The translations under genes and the position numbers were made by a program. This document shows, one piece after another, positions 23,434-34,633 of a stretch of 59,634 nt of DNA; position 1 is the stretch's first letter, and every line of letters begins with the position of its first letter. The stretch is from Deltaproteobacteria bacterium. GTDB taxonomy: Bacteria; Desulfobacterota; Binatia; Binatales; Binataceae. The stretch lies in NCBI GenBank assembly GCA_021801125.1, contig JAJYYI010000082.1:1-59634 (forward strand), written 5' to 3'. A model generated the notes under the pieces. That model ran no database searches. It was not told the origin of the DNA and saw only the letters and a program-made list of their open reading frames with translations.

Positions 23434-24639
23434 TTAGGGAACGGACGAACCCGCCAGCGCCTCGCGCATCACACCGACGGCGAACTTTATTTCGTCGTCG
23501 GAGATCGTCAGCGGCGGCGCAAGCCTCACTACATTGTCCGCGTTGAGCGTCCAGTTGACGATCACGCCGCCGGCGATGGTCTTCTCGACGAAGCGCTGGG
23601 CAAGCGTCGCGCTGGTAAGCTCGATACCGAGCAGCAGACCGATACCGCGCACGGCGTGCACCTGTTTTGAGTCGATAAGCTCGCTAAGTTGCTGCAGTAA
23701 TTGCGCGCCGGAGTGACGCGCACGCTCTGCAAGGCGATTGGCCACGATGAACTCCAGCGCGGCAAGGCCGGTTGCGCAGGACAGGGGATGGCCGCCGAAC
23801 GTCGTGATATGGCCCAGCGGCGGGTCGTGCGAAAGCGTGTCGAGCACGACGCTAGGCGCGCAAAACGCGCCCAGCGGTAAGCCGCCTCCCAGCGCCTTAG
23901 CGAGGACGACGAAATCGGGCGTGACACCGAAATGCTCGAGCGCGAAGAGCTTGCCGGTGCGGCCGAAACCGGTCAGCACTTCATCAAAGACGAGCAGCGC
24001 GCCCACCTCGTCGCATCGCTTGCGAAGCGCGCGCATAAATTCGACGCTCGGGATTCTGACTCCAGCCTCGGCTTGGACCGGCTCGATGACGACGGCGCTT
24101 ATCGTTTGGTCGAGCTTAGCCAGCGCGCCCTCGTCATCGTAGGGTAGATGAAGCACCGGACCAGCAAGCGGTTCAAAGGGTGCGCGGAAGCTCGTATTGC
24201 CGGCCAGCGCCAGGGCGCCCATCGTGTCGCCGTGATAGGCTCCGTCGAAGGCTGCCCATCCCGCGCGGCCCGTATATTTGCGCGCCGTCTTGAGCGTGCC
24301 TTCGATAGCTTCGGTCCCCGAGTTGGTGAAGTAGACTCGGTCGATTGGAGAAGGCAGCAGCGCGGCGAGACGAGATGCCAGCGCAACTTGCGCTTCGAGC
24401 ACGTACTCGCCGTAAACCATCACGTGCAAGTGACGTGCGGACTGCCTCGCTATGGCTTCCAGCACCACCGGATGGCCATGGCCGAGCGCGCAGACGCCGA
24501 TTCCGGCGATGAAGTCCAAGTAACGCCGACCGTCGCGCGCGATCAGCCAGCAACCGCTGGCCCGTTCTATTTCTAGACCTATCGGAGCTGGCGAAGTCTG
24601 CGCCAGGTGGCGCACGAAGCCTTCTCGGAGATTACTCAC
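23434..24639 (-). CDS. Class III (acetylornithine/putrescine-type) PLP aminotransferase
   Basis: 401 residues. PLP-site features include YFTNSGTEAIEGTLKTARKYT, GAYHGDTMGALALAG, LLVFDEVLTGFGRTGK and the Schiff-base Lys in VVLAKALGGGLPLGAF. Class III enzymes transfer amino groups to and from terminal carbons (acetylornithine, putrescine, GABA). The start ATG overlaps the stop of the LuxC-like gene (ATGA), so the two are coupled. In that company the likely acceptor is the aldehyde made by the reductase, giving a primary amine; this is inference from context. An argD role is less likely because argC lies 10 kb away on its own. Confidence 0.85.
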   Translation of the reverse strand: MSNLREGFVRHLAQTSPAPIGLEIERASGCWLIARDGRRYLDFIAGIGVCALGHGHPVVLEAIARQSARHLHVMVYGEYVLEAQVALASRLAALLPSPIDRVYFTNSGTEAIEGTLKTARKYTGRAGWAAFDGAYHGDTMGALALAGNTSFRAPFEPLAGPVLHLPYDDEGALAKLDQTISAVVIEPVQAEAGVRIPSVEFMRALRKRCDEVGALLVFDEVLTGFGRTGKLFALEHFGVTPDFVVLAKALGGGLPLGAFCAPSVVLDTLSHDPPLGHITTFGGHPLSCATGLAALEFIVANRLAERARHSGAQLLQQLSELIDSKQVHAVRGIGLLLGIELTSATLAQRFVEKTIAGGVIVNWTLNADNVVRLAPPLTISDDEIKFAVGVMREALAGSSVP

Positions 24640-25982
24640 ACGCGATAGCCCAGGTGCTTAAGTAATCGCCCACGGTCGTGCGGCCAGTCAAGCGGTGGCG
24701 ATTGCATCCGGCCAGGCGCGCAGACATGCGACACACCAAAGGCCCTGAGCCGCGACGCCAGCCGCGGCCATCGGCCGTGCGGGTCGAAAACGGCGAAGGC
24801 CTCGAGCTTGCCCTTGAACGGACAAAGGCGCCGTTCCAATTCGGTTTGGTCGGAGACCATCGAGACGTACACCGTTCGGTACCCAGGCGAGAGGCGAAAG
24901 CTTGCGGCCGGCTCGAAGATCACGTTGTAGGAAAATTCGCTCCCTTCCCAGAAATCCACAGCCTCGCCGCCGATTTTGCGCCATCGCGCCTCTTCACGCG
25001 CCGAGCGTAGCGGAGCCGCCGTGCCGAGGCTTAGCTGGCGGGGCGGTGGAAGACGGTCCGCGACCTGTTTCAGAGCCCGAGCCATCCGCATCGCAAAGCG
25101 TAGCGCTGATTTCGGCTCTCGCGTTCGCACGAAGACGTGATGCAGCGAAAGGCATCCACGCTGCTCGAACAGGGCGACGTCGCGCGCCACCGCAGCGGCC
25201 AGCGCCGTGATACACGCCGGCGCGACGTTCTCGATCTCCACGAATCCGCCGCTTGCCCGACTGCCGAACGGAATTAGTTTTGGTGTCAGGGCCTGTAACG
25301 CTTCCATCGTGCTGTCCGCGCCGAAAGCAACCAGAGCATCGCAATTGACCGCTAGCGCCCGGGTGAGATCCGCGCGCTCGCGCTCGAAGGCCGTCACCAC
25401 GATTAGGTTCGCCAGCACAGGGTCGCTCTCCGCGACAGTACACGCGAACTCATCGAAAAAAAGCGGCTCGGCGGTCGCACTCTTGACGATTACCGCGGCG
25501 CCCGCGACGAGCGCCTGTACCACCTCGTGCAGCCCGGCGCCTACCACATTGCCGGGCATGATAAAGCCTAGCAGCTCGCGCCGGCCAGACGCGCGCTTAG
25601 CCAAGTACTTGAAGGCGGCTGGTTCGAAGGGTTCGAGCAGCGCGTTTAGCGACTCGTCGAGAAGATCGATACTAAAGCCCGAGCGCAGCGAGACTTGTTC
25701 GAGCAGGTTGCGCCGCCGCTTGTAAGCGGGGTCGCGCCACTTTTCGCAAACCAGTGCGAGGGTCGCGGCCACCCGCTCCGGCTCCGGTGGCGCCGCCGAC
25801 GCGGCACGCAGCCGGCGGGCGCAGTACGCTAAAAACGCCGGGTTCAGGGCCGGCTCGAAGCCATTGACGGCCCGCCGGTCGGCTTTCGTCAACAGAGCGG
25901 CTTTAGTGCCGGACGGAGCAGCTTCCGCGGTGCGAATTCGCGCGCGACGCAGATACTGATGTTTGCGTGCGGGTGGACGCAT
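24636..25982 (-). CDS. LuxC-like acyl reductase (acyl-CoA or acyl-enzyme to aldehyde)
   Basis: 448 residues. LuxC-family features are the stretch ELLGFIMPGNVVGAGLHEVV, the nucleotide-site-like AGAAVIVKSATAEPLFFDEF, and the catalytic-Cys motif FEQRGCLSLHHVFV. LuxC reduces fatty acyl groups to aldehydes with NADPH, receiving them from the acyl-protein synthetase LuxE, whose homolog is encoded just upstream. There is no luciferase gene here, so bioluminescence is not its role. It overlaps the following aminotransferase by four bases. The C-terminal third, with a tyrosine-rich VTVYVSMV-like strand region, also fits the family. Confidence 0.82.
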   Translation of the reverse strand: MRPPARKHQYLRRARIRTAEAAPSGTKAALLTKADRRAVNGFEPALNPAFLAYCARRLRAASAAPPEPERVAATLALVCEKWRDPAYKRRRNLLEQVSLRSGFSIDLLDESLNALLEPFEPAAFKYLAKRASGRRELLGFIMPGNVVGAGLHEVVQALVAGAAVIVKSATAEPLFFDEFACTVAESDPVLANLIVVTAFERERADLTRALAVNCDALVAFGADSTMEALQALTPKLIPFGSRASGGFVEIENVAPACITALAAAVARDVALFEQRGCLSLHHVFVRTREPKSALRFAMRMARALKQVADRLPPPRQLSLGTAAPLRSAREEARWRKIGGEAVDFWEGSEFSYNVIFEPAASFRLSPGYRTVYVSMVSDQTELERRLCPFKGKLEAFAVFDPHGRWPRLASRLRAFGVSHVCAPGRMQSPPLDWPHDRGRLLKHLGYRV

Positions 25983-26036
25983 CGTTTGCTCACTTATCGC
26001 GGCTTAAGTCGAGCGCGTCCAAGGGGCGCATCACCT

Positions 26037-27134
26037 TCATCGGCCCGGCGCTTCGCTGGTCAGTGCGGGCTCGGCGAACTGAGCGATCCCGAGCGCGCAT
26101 CCGCGCGGCTCGCTAAGTGCCGCGCGGCCGAGGATCTGTACCAAACCGCCGCTCACCACACCGACGTCCTCGGTTAGCAGCGCTGAGACCGAGCCAACGT
26201 TGGCCAGGTCGAAAAACTTAAGCAGGCCAGGCTGCCCCTGGGCGACCGAGGCTAAGTTAATCGGATCTACCGCGCTGACATGGAGCCAGGGCGGGGCAAC
26301 CTTAAGGCGCTGGCCCTCGGCTGGCTGCACCTGTGAATTGAATGGAGTTGCGTCGTATAGCTGCGAGCACATCTCGCTCATGCCGTACTCGTTGACGACC
26401 AGGTCGGGATGTACGCCCAGCCATCGCCAGCATAGTTCCAGGACGTCCGAGACGCTTAGCGGGCGCACCTGTCCTTTGGCGCCGCCGGTGTCCATGACGC
26501 GGGAGCCGCGCGGGAGTTCAATCGGGGTATGCCTTTTACGCAAGTCCTCGAGCAGCGCGCCCAGGGCGGCGGTCGTGCCAAGGATGCAGACCGGGGTTCC
26601 CGCGCGCGCGACCGTGCGCAAAAAGCGGCGCGCCGCGGCAAGGTCCACCGCGCGCCTAGTTGCGGCGCATAACGTAGGCGGCTGCGCAAACTCCTCGATA
26701 CACCAAGTAAGCATCTGGGCGAGCGACGATTCGGGCATCCGATTAGCGGTGGGATGCAAAGCCAGCATTGGCATTCGCGCACCATCCGGAAACAACATTG
26801 CGCGTAAGTGAGAAAGGGCGGACGCGCGGTAAACGTCCAGGCGCGCTATGAAGTGTTGTCCGCGCCGTTGCTTTCCCCGACTAGTCCCGCTGCTGCGAAA
26901 GACCCGTTCGGCCTGTCCGTTTTGCAGCCGGGCATACTTGAATGCGAGGGTACTGACGGCTGGAATATCGTTCAACCGGCGCACCGTGCTAGTATTGCGC
27001 CCAACGCTCAGGCAAAATGCCCGATATGCGCCGACGGCGGCGAATTGATAGGCGAAAACCTTAAGTGCTAGCGGCTCGAAACGTTCAGGCCTGGGCATCT
27101 GGATATAGTCAAGCACTTCGTCGTAGATAGTCAT
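26037..27134 (-). CDS. LuxE-like acyl-protein synthetase
   Basis: 365 residues from the ATG at 27134, behind a GAGG; an in-frame ATG nine codons earlier (27161) is possible. Features of the acyl-protein synthetase branch of adenylating enzymes: FRSSGTSRGKQR (nucleotide loop), VMDTGGAKGQVRPLS and VNEYGMSEMCSQLYD, the EYG motif of the active site. LuxE activates a carboxylic acid as acyl-AMP, holds it as a thioester and passes it to LuxC. Only 54 bases separate it from the LuxC-like gene. LuxE-like proteins also occur in polysaccharide loci, but none is nearby. Confidence 0.8.
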   Translation of the reverse strand: MTIYDEVLDYIQMPRPERFEPLALKVFAYQFAAVGAYRAFCLSVGRNTSTVRRLNDIPAVSTLAFKYARLQNGQAERVFRSSGTSRGKQRRGQHFIARLDVYRASALSHLRAMLFPDGARMPMLALHPTANRMPESSLAQMLTWCIEEFAQPPTLCAATRRAVDLAAARRFLRTVARAGTPVCILGTTAALGALLEDLRKRHTPIELPRGSRVMDTGGAKGQVRPLSVSDVLELCWRWLGVHPDLVVNEYGMSEMCSQLYDATPFNSQVQPAEGQRLKVAPPWLHVSAVDPINLASVAQGQPGLLKFFDLANVGSVSALLTEDVGVVSGGLVQILGRAALSEPRGCALGIAQFAEPALTSEAPGR

Positions 27135-27815
27135 TCTTGACCGAACCTCGATTCGGGTCATTTTCAGTTGGGCCTTGGTGGCGGCGGTGGCGGAATGTGT
27201 ATCAACTGGCCCGTGGACTAAGTAAGCTTCCAGGCGTGTCCGAAAAGCACGCGTTTCGCCTTGATGCCCCTTTATGCTCCGCAGGCGACGCCAACGGAAC
27301 GCGGAAGCTTTGGCCGGCCCTGTTCTCAGCGGATCCTATTTTCCCCGCGCAGCGCGACCGGGACGGCTCCGTTAGCGTCGGATTCCTAAGGCTAATTTCT
27401 GTTAGGTTCCGGTGCTCTGTGTCATTCAGCCCCATCGAGCCCCTCTTCGGTTGCCGACTCAGCGGGGTGCGCCACGGTTAGCCAACACGCTGTTTTCTAG
27501 CCAAAAAATGACTAACGGACGAGTGAGGTTGGGGTCAACGTTGCGGTCCCCGCGGCTTCGTTGCGCGCCCGGGCGCCTTTTTGCACTGTACTACGGTGCT
27601 TTACGTCGTCAACCTTCGGCTTGCGACAACCGTCTGTGTACGGAGTTTCTTTTCCCTGCGGTCTTAACGGACGCGAGGTTACTACAACGGTAATTGCAAT
27701 AATTGCATCCGCATCGGTCAGGCGGCAACGCGACTTGCGTTTGAAGGTCGCTTTGCCATTTGCTTAAGGCTATGCTACGTGAAGCATGGAAGGCTCTTTC
27801 GGAAGCCTAGGGACA
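27135..27815. other. Long intergenic region
   Basis: About 680 bases between divergent genes, holding the promoters of the LuxE-LuxC-aminotransferase operon and of the next gene. No convincing reading frame. A short symmetrical AT-rich site, TGCAAT-A-ATTGCA (27695-27707), stands out in GC-rich surroundings and may be a regulator site. A GCGCCC/GGGCGC palindrome followed by five T lies near 27568. Confidence 0.35.
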
Positions 27816-28238
27816 ATGAAAAAATTTGTTGCCGGAGTTGTTACGGGCTTTATCTTAAGCTGTGGTCTCGCGCTCGCCGCCGAGGATTTCGGTCACAATG
27901 GTGTGTTCTGGATGGGGCTTGACCTCTCGGGTAAGCGAGGTTATCTGACGGGCTACTCCGACGCGATGAAGATTAGCGTCGGCAAGCTCGAAAACCTGGA
28001 AGTTGCCGCCGAACTCTTTCGCTGGAAGAGCGCGCGCAAGATTATCGGCCAAGTGTCACGCGAGCTTCGCATGGCGGACGTCGGGCCGGAGAAGCTGATG
28101 CAGCAACTCGATCACCTCTATTCGGATCGGAAGTACAGCGATCTCGATTTGGGGTCGGCGCTGCAACTGGTCAATATTCGGACCGAGAATCAATCGGAAA
28201 AGCCGCCCAAGGCCGAGCAGAATCCCGCCAAAAATTAA
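27816..28238 (+). CDS. Small exported protein, function unknown
   Basis: 140 residues from the ATG at 27816 (TAGGGA just upstream); an ATG ten codons earlier would spoil the signal peptide. MKKFVAGVVTGFILSCGLALAA is a clean signal peptide, cleaved after residue 22. The mature part contains GYLTGYSDAMKISVGKLENL, similar in shape to the G-Y-x-x-G-x-x-D motif of small periplasmic Rap1a/Tai-type proteins, though I would not assign it. The tail is Lys/Pro/Glu-rich. It precedes the protease-like gene by 179 bases. Confidence 0.6.
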   Translation: MKKFVAGVVTGFILSCGLALAAEDFGHNGVFWMGLDLSGKRGYLTGYSDAMKISVGKLENLEVAAELFRWKSARKIIGQVSRELRMADVGPEKLMQQLDHLYSDRKYSDLDLGSALQLVNIRTENQSEKPPKAEQNPAKN

Positions 28239-28417
28239 GCTCGTTCGTTGACGACGTTTAGCGGCCGATTTTGATGCCGTAAAGGGCTTTTTGATTGGTT
28301 GGCATCGGTCGCGTGTGGGTCGAAAGCTTTTTCAACGAGTCTGCGAGGTAGAAGCGCCGGCAATCGGTGTTGAGGAGGTTTTGAGCTAGCCCGGTCCGGT
28401 TGCGGAGGTACAGCGAG

Positions 28418-29323
28418 GTGAATGGGGCGGTACATCTGTTAGAACAAGTCGCTGCCTCAGTGGTAGGAATCCACGCCAGCGTACCACGGGAGCATCCTTC
28501 GGTCGCGGTTGGGTTGGGTGCTGACCGACGCGGCAGCGGCACGTTGATAAGCGCGGAAGGCTTGGTGCTCACGGTCAACTACGTGGTGATGGGAGCGCGC
28601 CGGCTGATCGTGACCCTCACTGACGGGACGCAGTACGACGGGCGAATCGCGGCCCAGGACTTCACGAGCAATCTCGCGTTGGTGAAGATCGAACCCAGCG
28701 CGCAGCTACCCCACCTTAGGATCACTTCGTCGAGAGATTTAGTGCCCGGCCAGGACGCGTTCATTGTCGCGAGCACCGGCAATGAAGCGCGGCGAGCTGA
28801 TTCCGGGTTGGTCAGCTATATCGGCCCGTTCGACGCGCTATGGGAGTTTGTCCTGGAGCGCTGCGTCATGGTGTCGGCCATGAACCTTGGCTTTGGCGGT
28901 GCCCCGGTCTGTAACGTCAAGGGAGAGCTCTTCGGCGTATCGTACCTTAGCATGGCCGAAGTAGGCCGCGCGGTGCTTGCAATCCCGACCGAGTGTTTTC
29001 TGGACGTGCGCGACGAGCTGGTCAGCCAAGGGCGGCGCGTGAGCGCGCGGCCGTGGGCGTGGCTCGGGTTGCTCTCCTATACTCTACGCGAGCATGTAGT
29101 CGTGGCCGGCCTTTTGCCGGGCGGACCTGCCGAAAAAGCCGGGCTGAAGCAAGGGGACGTTATTCTTGCGATCGACGGCCAAGGCTTGAGCGAGCGGCGC
29201 GCCCTTTATGAAGCACTGCGGTCGCGCCAGCCTGGCGAGGCGTTGAACCTGCGAATTTTTCGCGACAATAAAGTGCATACGCTGGAAGTCGCAGGCATCC
29301 GCGTCGAAGACTACTTCGGTTAG
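28418..29323 (+). CDS. Catalytically dead DegP/HtrA-like protein with PDZ domain
   Basis: 301 residues from a GTG at 28418, with GGAGG (28404-28408) upstream. Residues about 30-195 follow the DegP/HtrA protease fold: RGSGTLISAEGLVLTVNYVV, TDGTQYDGRIAAQDFTSNLA, NLGFGGAPVCNVKGELFGVS. All three catalytic positions differ: where DegP has NNHVV this has VNYVV (His to Tyr), RSDIALI becomes TSNLALV (Asp to Asn), and GNSGG becomes GFGGA (Ser to Gly). A PDZ domain follows (about 205-295: GLLPGGPAEKAGLKQGDVIL). No signal peptide is visible, so it may be cytoplasmic. It is intact, hence more likely a scaffold or substrate-binding pseudoprotease than decaying DNA. Confidence 0.75.
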   Translation: MNGAVHLLEQVAASVVGIHASVPREHPSVAVGLGADRRGSGTLISAEGLVLTVNYVVMGARRLIVTLTDGTQYDGRIAAQDFTSNLALVKIEPSAQLPHLRITSSRDLVPGQDAFIVASTGNEARRADSGLVSYIGPFDALWEFVLERCVMVSAMNLGFGGAPVCNVKGELFGVSYLSMAEVGRAVLAIPTECFLDVRDELVSQGRRVSARPWAWLGLLSYTLREHVVVAGLLPGGPAEKAGLKQGDVILAIDGQGLSERRALYEALRSRQPGEALNLRIFRDNKVHTLEVAGIRVEDYFG

Positions 29324-29429: not shown

Positions 29430-32312
29430 TCATTTTCCATCGGTCTGAGCCATATTAAGCACCTGGGCCAGGTGAAGCGGCCGCCGTCCGTGGCAAAGGC
29501 TCGCGATCTGGGTCCGACAGGAAAAGCCGTCGGCAAGCACCAGAGTGTCGGGCGAGCTTTTGCGAATGGCCGGAGCCAGTATTCGCTCGCCGAGCATGCG
29601 CGAAATCTCGAAGCGGTCGCGATGGTACCCGAAAGCGCCGGCCATGCCGCAGCATCCCGCATCGAGTTCCCTTAGCTCAAGCCCTTCAACTTGTCCAAGG
29701 AGGCTGCGCGCGGACGCGGTGCCCGCAATCGCCTTCTGATGGCAATGCCCGTGCAGCAGCACCTTCGCCGGCAAGGCGAGCGGGCTTTCGCCCAGCCCTT
29801 GGCGCGACAGAAACTCATCGAGCAGCAGGGCCTTTTCCGACAGCATTTTTGCCCTGGGGTCTTTCGGGAAGAAACGCAAGGCCTCATCGCGAAAGGTCAG
29901 CAGGCAACTCGGTTCGAGACCGACTATGTAAATACCGCGCTCGGCGAACGGCGAGAGAACGGTCAGAATTTTGGCCAGGCGCTGCCGAGCCTGGGCCAGC
30001 ATCCCGACGTCATACAAGGGACGCCCGCAGCACAGATCCTGTTCGGCAACGGTGACCGCGAAGCCGGCCCGCTCAAGCACCTCTACCGCGCATCGTCCGA
30101 CGTCCGGATCGAAAAAGTTCGTGAACGTATCCACGAACAGAACCACCTCGCGCCCGTTGCCGTAGGGCAGCCGCCGGGCTCTGAACCAGTCGCGAAACGA
30201 GTGCTGCGCGAGTGCGGGAAGAGGCCGTTCAGGATGAACCTTCAAGGCGCGTTTGACCAGTTCCGCGAACGGCGGCTTTCGTGAGAAAAAGTTGGCCAAC
30301 CGCGGAGTCTTTGCCCCCCATGCCGCAAGCTCGTGCAAGTAGCCCAGGAACAGGTCATGCGCCGAGCGGCGGTGGGAGCGATAGTAATGGGCGAGAAATT
30401 CCGCTTTGTAGGCCGCCATGTCCACTTCGGCGGGGCATTCGCGTTTGCATCCTTTGCAAGAAAGGCAGAGTTCGAGCGCGGCATAAAGGGCGGGATCCTC
30501 AAACCCGCCATCCAGGACGCCGCTGTAAAGCGCCTCGAAAAGCAGCCGCGCGCGCCCGCGCGTGGAATGCACCTCTTCGCGGGTTGCCATGTATGAGGGG
30601 CACATCGTGCCGGCCTCGAGCTTGCGGCACTTGCCGATTCCAGCGCATCCCAGGGCGACGCCTTCCAGACCTTGCTCGCGGCTGAAATCCATATGGGTTT
30701 TTATCGCCGGTGTTCGGCGCCAGGCGCCGGGGCGCAAGTGAGCGTCCAATGCGTCAGGGCGCACTACGACTCCCGGGTTCATCATTCCGTCCGGGTCGAA
30801 GATGCGCTTGAACTCGGCGAAATCGCCCAACAATTGGGTACCGAACATCTTGTCGAGCATCTGAGAACGGGCGCGGCCGTCTCCGTGCTCGCCTGACAGG
30901 GATCCGCCGTTTTCGACCACAAGGTCGCCGATCTTTAGCATCGCCGTGCGATACCGCTCGGCTCCCTGCGGATCGGCGAAGGGGAAATCGATTCGGCAGT
31001 GAAGGCAGCCGTCGCCGAAATGACCGTAATAAACCGCAACTTTAAGGCCGTGCGCGGTCAACAGGCGGTGAAACTCCCGCAAATAGCTGCCAAGTTTTTG
31101 CGGTGCTACCGCCGTGTCTTCAGCCCCGGGCCAGGTGCGCGGCATCCCTTCGATAGCCACGCTGGAGCCCAGACCTGATTCGCGCAGGCCCCACACCGCC
31201 TGCTGTTCGTTTGAATCCGCCAGCACGCGCGCCTGAGTTACGCCGGATTGCGTCGCGGCGCGGGCCGCGAGCGCCTCGGCTTGGTCGCGCGCCTCGTCGG
31301 TGTGGTCCGCGGCGAGCTCGACGAGCAGCCAGCCGCGGCCGTCGGGTAGCAGCTTCACCGCGTCGAGCGCGATTCCTCGGTGGCGGGCGAGCGGCACGAT
31401 CCGATCGTCGAACCCCTCGACCGCCTGAGGTCGATATTCAAGCAGCCAAGCCACCTGGTCCGCGGCGGCGAAGATGTCATCACAGCCGACTGCTACGGTG
31501 ATTCGCCTGCGGGGCAACGGCACCAGCTTCACCGTGGCCTGCAGAGTGAGCGCGAGAGTACCTTCCGAACCCGCAAGCGCGCCAGCCAGATTAAAACCGT
31601 GCTCCGGCAGAAGTTGGTCGAGGTTGTAGCCCGAGACGCGCCGCGGAATCTTCGGATAGCGTTCGCGAACCCGCTCGGCGCATCGGTTGCGCAGCTCCAA
31701 CAACCGGCGAAAAATCGCACCCTCTCGGCCGGGCAACGCCGCGCGTTCCGCCGCGAGCGCTTCGTTGCTCCCCCCGGCGCTCAAGACGGTGCCGTCGTAA
31801 AGCAACACCTCAAGCCGCTCCAGATTGTCGACGGTCTTTCCGTAACGCAGCGAATGGGCGCCGCAGGAGTTATTACCGATCATTCCGCCGATGTTGCATC
31901 GGTCCTTGGTCGTCGGGTCGGGCGCGAAAAACAAGCCGTAGGGAGCAAGTGCGGCGTTGAGCTGGCTTTGTACGACCCCCGGTTCCACCACCGCCAGGCG
32001 GCGGTCCGGGTCGACCTTAATTGTGCGGTTGATGTACTTGGAAAAATCGAGCACCAGCGCGCTGTTGCAGGTCTGTCCGCCCAGGCTGGTTCCTCCGCCG
32101 CGCGCGAGCACGGCGACGGCATTTTCCCGCGCCAAGCCCAATGTGGCGCGCAAATCTCCCTCATGGCGCGGAATGACGACTCCGAGCGGGACCAGCCGAT
32201 AGTTCGAAGCGTCAGTGGAATAGACGGCCAGCGTGGCGCGGTCGAAGCGCACTTCGCCGTCGATGCGCCGGCGAAGCTCCTTTTGCAAACGCTCGATTGA
32301 CAACGCGGCCAT
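29430..32312 (-). CDS. FAD/4Fe-4S 2-hydroxyacid dehydrogenase (GlcD-GlpC fusion, YdiJ-like)
   Basis: 960 residues. The N-terminal FAD-binding domain has VLARGGGTSLGGQTCNSALV and MIGNNSCGAHSLRYGKTVDN; the FAD-linked oxidase C-terminal domain follows with LSGEHGDGRARSQML. An Fe-S region has GCAGIGKC and CLSCKGCKRECPAEVDM, and the last 250 residues have two CCG-type motifs, DLCCGRPLYDVG and LDAGCCGMAGAFGYHRDR. This is the arrangement of YdiJ-type enzymes, which oxidise D-2-hydroxyacids such as D-lactate or D-2-hydroxyglutarate and pass electrons to the respiratory chain. The exact substrate is open; D-lactate from the GloB reaction is one option. Confidence 0.88.
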   Translation of the reverse strand: MAALSIERLQKELRRRIDGEVRFDRATLAVYSTDASNYRLVPLGVVIPRHEGDLRATLGLARENAVAVLARGGGTSLGGQTCNSALVLDFSKYINRTIKVDPDRRLAVVEPGVVQSQLNAALAPYGLFFAPDPTTKDRCNIGGMIGNNSCGAHSLRYGKTVDNLERLEVLLYDGTVLSAGGSNEALAAERAALPGREGAIFRRLLELRNRCAERVRERYPKIPRRVSGYNLDQLLPEHGFNLAGALAGSEGTLALTLQATVKLVPLPRRRITVAVGCDDIFAAADQVAWLLEYRPQAVEGFDDRIVPLARHRGIALDAVKLLPDGRGWLLVELAADHTDEARDQAEALAARAATQSGVTQARVLADSNEQQAVWGLRESGLGSSVAIEGMPRTWPGAEDTAVAPQKLGSYLREFHRLLTAHGLKVAVYYGHFGDGCLHCRIDFPFADPQGAERYRTAMLKIGDLVVENGGSLSGEHGDGRARSQMLDKMFGTQLLGDFAEFKRIFDPDGMMNPGVVVRPDALDAHLRPGAWRRTPAIKTHMDFSREQGLEGVALGCAGIGKCRKLEAGTMCPSYMATREEVHSTRGRARLLFEALYSGVLDGGFEDPALYAALELCLSCKGCKRECPAEVDMAAYKAEFLAHYYRSHRRSAHDLFLGYLHELAAWGAKTPRLANFFSRKPPFAELVKRALKVHPERPLPALAQHSFRDWFRARRLPYGNGREVVLFVDTFTNFFDPDVGRCAVEVLERAGFAVTVAEQDLCCGRPLYDVGMLAQARQRLAKILTVLSPFAERGIYIVGLEPSCLLTFRDEALRFFPKDPRAKMLSEKALLLDEFLSRQGLGESPLALPAKVLLHGHCHQKAIAGTASARSLLGQVEGLELRELDAGCCGMAGAFGYHRDRFEISRMLGERILAPAIRKSSPDTLVLADGFSCRTQIASLCHGRRPLHLAQVLNMAQTDGK

Positions 32313-33577: not shown

Positions 33578-34633
33578 CTAGGGGACGGGCGCGAGGTTGC
33601 GCAATCCCGCGCCTTCGTCCCAACCGAGCATCAAATTGAGATTTTGGACCGCTTGTCCGGCGGCGCCCTTGCCGAGGTTGTCGATCGCCGTCATTACGCA
33701 CAGCGCCTGCGCGCGATGGTTGAGCACAAAGCCGATCTCGCAGAAGTTCGTTGCGCGGACGTTCTTGAGTTCCGGCAGTTGCCCTTCGCCCAGAAGCCTG
33801 ACGAATGGCGACTTGGCGAAGGCCGTCTCGAACGCGGCTCGCACATCCTCGGCGAGCGTGCCGGCCCGCGGCCGCAGAAAGATCGACGTCAAGATGCCTC
33901 GACTCACCGGCAGCAGATGAGGTACGAACATCAGCGCGACGTCGCGGTCCAGCAGCGCGCCGATTTCCTGCTCCATCTCAGGGGTATGGCGATGACTACC
34001 GACCTTGTAAGGCCGGCAGTTTTCATTAACTTCGGCGAAGAGCTGTTCCACGCTGGCTGCGCGGCGCGCTCCGGTGGTGCCGGACTTGGCGTCGATGAGG
34101 ATCATCGACGGATCGACGAGCCCTTGCCTGATAAGCGGCAGCAAACCTAACAATACCGCGGTGGGATAGCATCCCGGATTGGCCACCAAGCGCGCTTCGG
34201 CGAGCGCGTGGCGGTGAAACTCCGATAGTCCGTACACCGCCTCCCGCAAAAGCTCCGGTGCCGGATGCTCCATGCCGTAGGTGCGACGGTAGACCTCGGG
34301 GTCACGCAGACGAAAGTCGGCCGAAAAATCGATCACCCGCCTGCCGCTCTTGACCAGGCTCCCGACCACTTCGATGCCAGCTCCCTCTGGAAGGCAAGAG
34401 AGGACAATCTCGGCCCGTCCCTTGAGAAGATTTGGACGCAGATCCTCGAGCGAGGGCAGGTCGAGTCCGGACAGATGGCGATAAACGTCCGCCACCTCGC
34501 GTCCGGCATAATGCTCGGAAGTTAGCACGGTCAACTCGACCAAGGGATGGCACGCCAGCAGCCGCACGGCTTCGATTCCCGAATAGCCCGTGGCGCCTAA
34601 GATCGCCACTTTGACTCGATTGTGACGCGTCAT
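33578..34633 (-). CDS. argC: N-acetyl-gamma-glutamyl-phosphate reductase
   Basis: 351 residues. Third step of arginine synthesis: NADPH reduction of N-acetylglutamyl phosphate. The N-terminal nucleotide motif is VAILGATGYSGIEAVRLL, the catalytic Cys155 is in ANPGCYPTAV, and KSGTTGARRAA and the SHRHTPEM motif follow, as in the long (type I) form. It lies downstream of rplM-rpsI on the same strand, with a gap of about 190 bases; this linkage is familiar from deltaproteobacterial genomes. Confidence 0.95.
   Translation of the reverse strand: MTRHNRVKVAILGATGYSGIEAVRLLACHPLVELTVLTSEHYAGREVADVYRHLSGLDLPSLEDLRPNLLKGRAEIVLSCLPEGAGIEVVGSLVKSGRRVIDFSADFRLRDPEVYRRTYGMEHPAPELLREAVYGLSEFHRHALAEARLVANPGCYPTAVLLGLLPLIRQGLVDPSMILIDAKSGTTGARRAASVEQLFAEVNENCRPYKVGSHRHTPEMEQEIGALLDRDVALMFVPHLLPVSRGILTSIFLRPRAGTLAEDVRAAFETAFAKSPFVRLLGEGQLPELKNVRATNFCEIGFVLNHRAQALCVMTAIDNLGKGAAGQAVQNLNLMLGWDEGAGLRNLAPVP

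Follow-up and report, generated by a model that had tools for sequence, protein, structure and literature searches.

The window, the whole 59,634-nucleotide stretch of Binatia DNA analyzed here, carries on its minus strand three consecutive genes with intact open reading frames (ORFs) for a LuxE-family acyl-adenylating/acyl-protein synthetase, a LuxC-family acyl reductase, and a class III PLP aminotransferase (AT). We consider it likely, with a probability of about 0.7, that this trio constitutes one self-contained pathway leading from an acid via an aldehyde to a primary amine. Medium- or long-chain fatty acids are the most likely substrates, which would make the product a fatty amine. The acid-to-amine interpretation given in an earlier note on this DNA is supported. 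The familiar role of LuxE and LuxC is to supply luciferase with its aldehyde in luminous bacteria. No account of the trio was found in the open-access literature searched.

The LuxE gene occupies positions 26037 to 27134 (Pfam LuxE, 57.4 bits; cutoff, 24.9). Its frame can be extended to 27161 (26037 to 27161, 374 aa), but translation probably begins at the later ATG (27134), the end coordinate given in the earlier note and the place where the LuxE frames of loci L044 and L046 begin. After a gap of 54 bases follows LuxC (24636 to 25982, 448 aa; Pfam LuxC, 144.1 bits; cutoff, 21), the end of which shares 4 bases, GTGA, with the start of the AT gene (23434 to 24639, 401 aa, GTG start; Aminotran_3, 344.6 bits; cutoff, 30.5). 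Both the tight or overlapping spacing and the three family calls of the earlier note are thereby borne out. Profile searches of the whole genome returned one match each for LuxE and LuxC and 10 for Aminotran_3. No luxA or luxB adjoins the trio: the genome has 18 Bac_luciferase matches, none of them on the window's contig, in agreement with the absence of luciferase noted before. Of the best four, three scan as F420-dependent oxidoreductases and one gave no match at an E value of 1e-80. A search for the LuxD thioesterase gave no match in the genome, but none in any control genome either. The flanking genes scanned, which are only part of the window's genes, encode an NAD synthase, a protease/PDZ protein, an FAD oxidase, a CitE-like protein, and two small ORFs without a Pfam match; as had been stated, polyketide and polysaccharide genes are not among them.

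The closest structural reference for both Lux-type proteins is the Photobacterium LuxC-LuxE fatty acid reductase complex (7xc6), with which they share both families, both catalytic Cys positions, and the LuxC fold. Its LuxE is the sole match of the window LuxE among PDB sequences at an E value of 0.01 (E, 3e-31). The LuxE motifs GT..G, TGG.KG, YGM.E, and RGC are invariant in 27 aligned rows, and Cys355 of RGC (26097 to 26099, minus strand; 27/27 rows) aligns with the GC of 7xc6 LuxE. It is the putative acyl-carrying residue, since we take the Cys at this position to be the one that becomes acylated. LuxC matches 7xc6_A in sequence (E, 7e-41), and its AlphaFold model (pLDDT, 90.5) has the same chain as its top fold match (Z, 37.0; rmsd, 2.8; 394 residues aligned), followed by aldehyde dehydrogenases at Z scores of 30.9 and less. 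The FEQRGCLSL active-site motif reported previously is present and contains Cys277 (25154 to 25152, minus strand), the putative catalytic nucleophile, which aligns with the Cys of 7xc6 LuxC and is invariant in 27/27 rows, as is Asn145. Identity to 7xc6 LuxC is only 18% over the fold alignment. The NCBIfam bioluminescence equivalogs score far below their cutoffs for both LuxC (40.9 of 750 bits) and LuxE (65.4 of 550 bits). Hence, although fatty acyl groups are the substrates of known LuxC and LuxE, this acyl specificity cannot be transferred to the window enzymes. The genes also depart from the lux genes of luminous bacteria in lacking a luciferase match on their contig and in that an aminotransferase follows LuxC instead.

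The AT is of the class III fold, with an AlphaFold model (pLDDT, 91.8) closest to the ArgD-type 1vef of Thermus (Z, 55.0), the putrescine aminotransferase YgjG (Z, 53.7), and, also among the closest, the transaminase part of PigE (Z, 52.0). The structure prediction proposed in the earlier note confirms the fold rather than resolving the pocket; the ArgD, putrescine, and PigE enzymes rank close together in it. Lys248 in LAKALGGG (23896 to 23898, minus strand) is the predicted PLP-binding lysine and is conserved in 26/26 rows. The AT shares this lysine and its fold with ArgD, LysJ, GabT, and putrescine aminotransferase, and it retains the Glu and Arg that match GabT Glu211 and Arg398 in 26/26 Binatia rows, residues that presumably face the donor. 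It differs from these enzymes at the substrate side and in adjoining LuxC. At the place of GabT Arg141 and its ArgD equivalent, all 26 Binatia ATs carry Asp (Asp138 in HGDT; 24226 to 24228, minus strand), whereas this organism's ArgD and GabT, like E. coli ArgD, AstC, and GabT, have Arg, and E. coli PatA has Lys. We assume that the Arg of HG-R-T binds the substrate carboxylate in ArgD and GabT. Its replacement, together with retention of the donor-side Glu and Arg, is what an enzyme that uses glutamate to aminate a neutral aldehyde would be expected to show. Asp is also present at this place in BioA, so by itself it is no proof of a fatty substrate. Among NCBIfam models, ArgD types score best with the AT, but neither cutoff is reached (TIGR00707, 349.5 of 410.05 bits; PRK03244, 356.9 of 457 bits). 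The genome's ArgD lies separately on contig G000:C43 and does pass TIGR00707 (469.2 bits). These scores, the separate ArgD, and the Asp rule out that the AT is the organism's ArgD, an identity that, according to the earlier note, would have spoken against the pathway.

Taken together, the three proteins probably operate as follows. LuxE, which requires ATP for loading an acid, would convert a free carboxylic acid to acyl-AMP and then place the acyl group on Cys355, from where it would move to Cys277 of LuxC. Reduction with NAD(P)H by LuxC would yield the aldehyde, which may be handed on without release to the AT and converted to the primary amine; L-glutamate is the most likely donor.

The distribution of the genes indicates that they belong together. 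Among 148 genomes of the class Binatia, to which named relatives assign the genome of the window, LuxE and LuxC were each present in 105 and the AT in 101 (counted at an E value of 1e-100, a threshold that truncated copies may fail to reach); all three occur in 99 and none in 41, genomes not individually named in the presence tables being assigned through tallies. Every AT genome also has LuxC (101/101), with a spacing of at most 300 bp in 86 and of 0.5 to 2.7 kb in 9; this is the outcome of the neighborhood check suggested in the earlier note. Only rarely does the AT appear to move independently: in six genomes it lies apart from LuxC, at 14 to 15 kb in two and on separate contigs in four. 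Genome G037 has LuxE and LuxC in midcontig without an AT. In 40 Binatia loci from 12 families, selected from the 105 LuxE genomes for contig size and family spread, the LuxE-LuxC-AT order and strand are conserved in 39. LuxE is fused to LuxC in three of the 40 and LuxC to the AT in six. Both kinds of fusion follow the pathway order, and a single open frame carries the Cys or Lys motifs of the two halves; the six LuxC-AT fusions belong to family f13 and have LuxC N-terminal to the AT. Given the co-occurrence in 101/101 genomes and the linkage, we reject a chance neighborhood. Almost all of the related genomes examined have either the whole trio or none of it.

Outside Binatia we considered the best 80 of 570 confirmed LuxE loci, a choice that makes the set lean toward Binatia-like LuxE; L083 to L087, being Binatia-like, were excluded, so that 75 remained. 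By an eye count within this best-80 set, in which some loci are short, 53 of the 75 have no class III AT match, and 40 of these 53 have a LuxC match. Eighteen loci of the same set have a class III AT no more than 600 bp away from LuxE or LuxC, and a different class III AT adjoins LuxE-LuxC in Myxococcota, Omnitrophota, and others. The 16 of these 18 with sequence at the active-site positions all differ from the Binatia active site. A test of one origin for all linked ATs argued weakly against a single clade (p-AU, 0.034, with only 16 reference rows); the tree left out L110 (a partial sequence some 3.5 kb away from LuxE), OWN_p12, and then L107 and L140 (partial).

The same three-step logic might serve an acid that is not fatty but aromatic, terpenoid, or sugar-linked, which we regard as unlikely. 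Known LuxC and LuxE use fatty acyl groups, 7xc6 is itself titled "fatty acid reductase complex," and the loci share no genes next to the trio for making a different acid. The low identity to 7xc6 LuxC would nevertheless agree with a different acid, as would the LuxE/LuxC homologs of flagellar glycosylation islands, for which a lipid-sugar has been proposed (PMC4875605, PMC7874193). Alternatively, the trio could be a counterpart of ArgB-ArgC-ArgD or LysZ-LysY-LysJ acting on an amino-acid side-chain carboxylate. The acid-semialdehyde-amine chemistry would be the same, the best family models and the top fold of the AT are of the ArgD type, and a Nitrospirota AT of the same type (L097) even passes TIGR00707 (415.6 versus 410.05 bits). 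We find this reading improbable given the subcutoff score of the window AT, the invariant Asp, and the separate ArgD, to which may be added an ArgC-like frame, identified by eye only, at 33578 to 34633.

It is also conceivable that the aldehyde made by LuxE-LuxC feeds an alcohol or hydrocarbon and that the AT is unrelated to it. The many AT-less loci among the best 80 of 570, most of them with LuxC, would fit such a role, but in Binatia the AT occurs only where LuxC does, is usually adjacent, and is fused to it in family f13, which makes this explanation very improbable. Finally, the AT might run in reverse, breaking down an amine to an aldehyde, with LuxC as the dehydrogenase. Class III aminotransferases and ALDH-fold enzymes often form catabolic pairs, and putrescine aminotransferase is among the close folds of the AT. 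However, an ATP-requiring acid loader such as LuxE would then be left without a role, and LuxC is nearer to a thioester reductase than to any aldehyde dehydrogenase (Z, 37.0 versus 30.9 or less), so that we give amine breakdown hardly any credence.

The preferred acid-to-amine pathway would appear to follow the logic of TamA/TamH, built from other enzymes. In the biosynthesis of tambjamine YP1 in Pseudoalteromonas tunicata, TamA and TamH are described as converting a C12 acid to the C12 amine with ATP, NADH, and L-Glu (PMC9594044). Activation, thioester reduction, and glutamate-dependent class III transamination are encoded together there, as the gene families and their linkage predict for the window trio. 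TamH is a reductase-transaminase fusion, as are the LuxC-AT fusions of Binatia, but its AAR-like reductase is C-terminal to the transaminase where LuxC is N-terminal; TamA is an ANL-ACP fusion, while LuxE is the sole Pfam match of the window's activating gene product; and TamA/TamH belong to a pigment gene cluster, whereas no biosynthetic cluster is seen around the trio (PMC9594044). PigE of the prodigiosin MAP branch and Zmn14/Zmn12 of zeamine also combine an acyl thioester or aldehyde with a class III transaminase, but with other reductase families and in an assembly-line context; Zmn14 is proposed to liberate an aldehyde for subsequent transamination (PMC3547906). The flagellin glycosylation islands of Enterobacteriaceae and Aeromonas resemble the window in having LuxE and LuxC without luciferase, although their partners are ACP, FabG, CaiC, and glycosyltransferases rather than an aminotransferase (PMC4875605, PMC7874193).

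In most genera of this uncultured class, LuxE and LuxC are a luciferase-free trait that is tied to an AT by linkage, co-loss, and fusion. If fatty amines are indeed made, they would represent an unrecognized class of bacterial lipids or signals, reached from fatty acids by a three-gene enzymatic route, and this would explain a gene for which acetylornithine aminotransferases are the best-scoring models. More tentatively, and with the odds somewhat against it, LuxE-LuxC-AT may be an undescribed, widespread "acid aminating" module whose luminescence-type fatty acid reductase, no longer serving a luciferase, channels the aldehyde to the AT, the long-chain amines of Binatia serving a core component such as an amino-lipid instead of a specialized metabolite, with a second origin involving another class III AT in Myxococcota, Omnitrophota, Chlamydiota, and others. 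The role of many LuxE-LuxC pairs outside luminous bacteria becomes a testable question.

No neighbor that would show the use of the amine is common to all loci. ORF clustering over 41 loci, the 40 Binatia loci and the window, yielded no conserved extra gene that names the product, the only two clusters present in 41/41 being mostly ORFs that overlap the trio. Likewise, among the best 80 of 570 loci, 22 non-Binatia ones have an AT match, and no ORF cluster outside the trio occurred in more than five of these. A CoA-transferase III cluster is found in 21/41 loci, but more than half of its members (19 of 34) run into the trio genes, probably because their frames are chimeric. The protease/orphan pair at 27786 to 29323 recurs among the 41 loci only in family f1, and zinc alcohol dehydrogenase, lipid A acyltransferase, histidine kinase, and PEP mutase are confined to subgroups of loci. 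An SDR cluster is present in 20/41 loci at varying distances. Two clusters of short orphans, each represented in 14 loci, have no Pfam match; most of their members share the strand of the trio, and about half or more lie within 1 kb of it.

On the minus strand of contig C143, one of the 150 contigs of a 3.5-Mb genome, three consecutive genes encode a LuxE family protein (26037-27134, or to 27161), a LuxC family protein (24636-25982) and a class III aminotransferase (AT; 23434-24639), with one genome-wide match each for LuxE and LuxC. The tight or overlapping spacing described in the earlier note was borne out, with a gap of 54 bases between LuxE and LuxC and a 4-base overlap (GTGA) between LuxC and AT. 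The operon likewise proved to lack luciferase nearby: the genome's 18 luciferase-family matches are all on other contigs, and the four best comprise three that score as F420-dependent oxidoreductases and one protein without an NCBIfam match at E 1e-80. LuxE probably starts at the later ATG at 27134, which is also where the earlier note ended its interval, since the frames of two compared loci (L044 and L046) start at the equivalent residue.

We put at about 0.7 the probability of an acid-to-aldehyde-to-amine pathway, a chemistry predicted from the enzyme families. The acid would be activated with ATP to acyl-AMP and acyl-LuxE, the acyl group would pass to Cys277 of LuxC, LuxC would reduce it to the aldehyde, and AT would convert this to a primary amine by transamination. 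We hold it near certain that the three proteins function together; for a fatty acid as the substrate we put the odds slightly above even.

Evidence for joint function comes from the class of this genome, which we take to be Binatia because close LuxE relatives come from 'Candidatus Binataceae' (L084 and L085) and 'Candidatus Binatia' (L086). Among 148 genomes, LuxE and LuxC each occur in 105 (54 of 72 genera; 75 of the 95 genomes with completeness of 90% or more and contamination of 5% or less) and AT in 101 (54 of 72 genera; 73 of those 95), with AT counted at E 1e-100 or better and one match each for LuxE, LuxC and AT. All three are present in 99 genomes and none in 41. Six genomes have LuxE without AT (G008, G058, G059, G065, G075 and G095), each in at least 470 contigs, and two have AT and LuxC without LuxE (G012 and G051). 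LuxC accompanies AT in 101 of 101 genomes, at a distance of at most 300 bp in 86, 0.5-2.7 kb in 9 and 14-15 kb in 2 (G050 and G067), and on separate contigs in 4 (G012, G016, G037 and G051). By our own arithmetic, with some ten class III ATs spread over 3.5 Mb, the chance of finding one at most 300 bp from a random gene is well below 1%. The order LuxE-LuxC-AT was found in 39 of 40 hand-picked loci of 12-20 kb from 12 families; in the exception (L049, genome G037) AT lies elsewhere, though LuxE and LuxC are mid-contig. LuxE and LuxC share a single frame in three of the 40 (L046, L074 and L075, all of family f1), and LuxC and AT do so in six (L054, L055, L056, L068, L077 and L082, all of family f13); the fused frames hold the active-site motifs of both halves, which stand in the same order as the proposed reactions. 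Conservation is highest for AT (52-83% identity to the window protein, against 37-75% for LuxE and 23-67% for LuxC). At one locus (L053, genome G064) LuxC and AT are still paired, with some 8 kb of intervening sequence between them and LuxE.

Both reductase components resemble the Photobacterium LuxC-LuxE fatty acid reductase complex (PDB 7xc6). Its LuxE is the sole PDB match of the window LuxE at E 0.01 or better (E 3e-31), with the SSGT stretch and C-terminal GC aligned, and its LuxC is the top match of the window LuxC (E 7e-41). Across 27 aligned class rows Cys355 of LuxE is invariant, as are Asn145 and Cys277 of LuxC, the latter aligning with the Cys of the 7xc6 LuxC. The AlphaFold model of LuxC (pLDDT 90.5, low at residues 1-39) is nearest in fold to 7xc6_A (Z 37.0, rmsd 2.8, 394 aligned residues, 18% identity), aldehyde dehydrogenase-fold entries being more distant (Z 30.9 and below). 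Neither protein reaches the NCBIfam bioluminescence cut-offs, and we therefore regard them as family members, not luminescence enzymes.

Among the findings that would refute its pathway reading, the earlier note had listed identity of AT with the organism's ArgD; this was not borne out. The AT model (pLDDT 91.8) does have ArgD of Mycobacterium tuberculosis among its nearest folds (Z 53.4), alongside 1vef (55.0), YgjG (53.7) and PigE (52.0). The genome's ArgD, however, is another gene (G000:C43:24442-25557; TIGR00707, 469.2 bits against a cut-off of 410.05), and GabT, BioA, AptA and HemL are likewise assigned to genes other than AT. At the place of Arg141 of Escherichia coli GabT, AT and 25 of 25 other Binatia rows carry Asp, whereas ArgD and GabT of both this genome and E. 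coli, and also E. coli AstC, carry Arg; this Arg (Arg144 of Salmonella ArgD, Arg180 of human OAT) binds the substrate carboxylate. Glu211 and Arg398, which serve the glutamate/2-oxoglutarate half reaction, are kept in AT and in all 25 rows. Such a site fits a carboxylate-free aldehyde aminated from glutamate. BioA of this genome and of E. coli also has Asp at this place, and Asp alone is therefore no proof of a fatty substrate. Counting against a clean split from ArgD, a Binatia-type AT with Asp at the Arg141 place, from a Nitrospirota locus (L097), passes the cut-off of the argD subfamily with some 5 bits to spare. Two further class III ATs of this genome (L010 on C115 and L011 on C29; matches of 374-375 aa) fall short of every NCBIfam cut-off and have in common an unusual active-site pattern, HGH[ST] and QFKPG.

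Beyond Binatia we surveyed a biased set, the 75 loci not evidently of this class among the best 80 of 570 LuxE matches. A class III AT match was found in 22 of the 75, and in 19 it lies no more than 600 bp from LuxE or LuxC. Most of these loci, from Myxococcota, Omnitrophota and Chlamydiota, have the order AT-LuxE-LuxC; the order is LuxE-LuxC-AT in L142, L145, L147 and L097. In a 61-row tree, 18 of these ATs form one group and those of Binatia another, both with 100/99 support; a single clade for the two was only weakly rejected (p-AU 0.034). The 18 have Leu (15), Met (2) or Cys (1) at the Arg141 place, Arg at that of Glu211 (18 of 18) and mostly Ser or Thr at that of Arg398, and this second type stands beside LuxE-LuxC in L091, L105, L116, L117, L125, L129, L144 and others. 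That two distinct AT active sites adjoin the same reductase pair argues for a partnership in function, with either two origins or a deep divergence behind it. The AT of L097 falls with the Binatia group; this Nitrospirota-labelled contig carries a Binatia-type trio (AT up to 58% identical), for which horizontal transfer and mislabelled binning are candidate explanations. The other 53 of the 75 loci lack an AT match, 40 of them having a LuxC match, and LuxE-LuxC therefore have other roles too, a published example being the flagellin glycosylation islands described in PMC4875605 and PMC7874193.

The individual parts and the activate-reduce-aminate logic are already known. As described in PMC9594044, TamA/TamH of tambjamine YP1 biosynthesis follow like logic with different enzyme families; supplied with ATP, NADH and L-Glu, they were shown to make C12 amine from C12 acid, and the transaminase range is C7-C14. 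In the open-access literature searched, we found no description of a LuxE-LuxC-aminotransferase pathway, and a word search of the Binatota genome paper (PMC8262859, main text) gave no match for 'lux' or 'aminotransferase'.

The 41 loci compared for clues to the product's use have no ORF cluster in common other than the trio itself. Closest to this are two families of short orphan proteins (L062:5133-5684, L070:8161-8484 and relatives), each present in 14 loci and encoded upstream of LuxE, mostly on the trio's strand, in part of the class; they have no Pfam match and may be accessory genes. In the window, a 150-aa orphan without a Pfam match and with a signal-like N terminus by eye (27786-28238, plus strand) and a trypsin/PDZ protease (28400-29323, plus strand) diverge from LuxE, an arrangement confined to family f1 among the loci compared. 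Next to these, 29430-32312 (minus strand) encodes a 960-aa protein that combines an FAD-linked oxidase part with a GlpC-like part and falls under the NCBIfam cut-off of the D-2-hydroxyglutarate dehydrogenase YdiJ.
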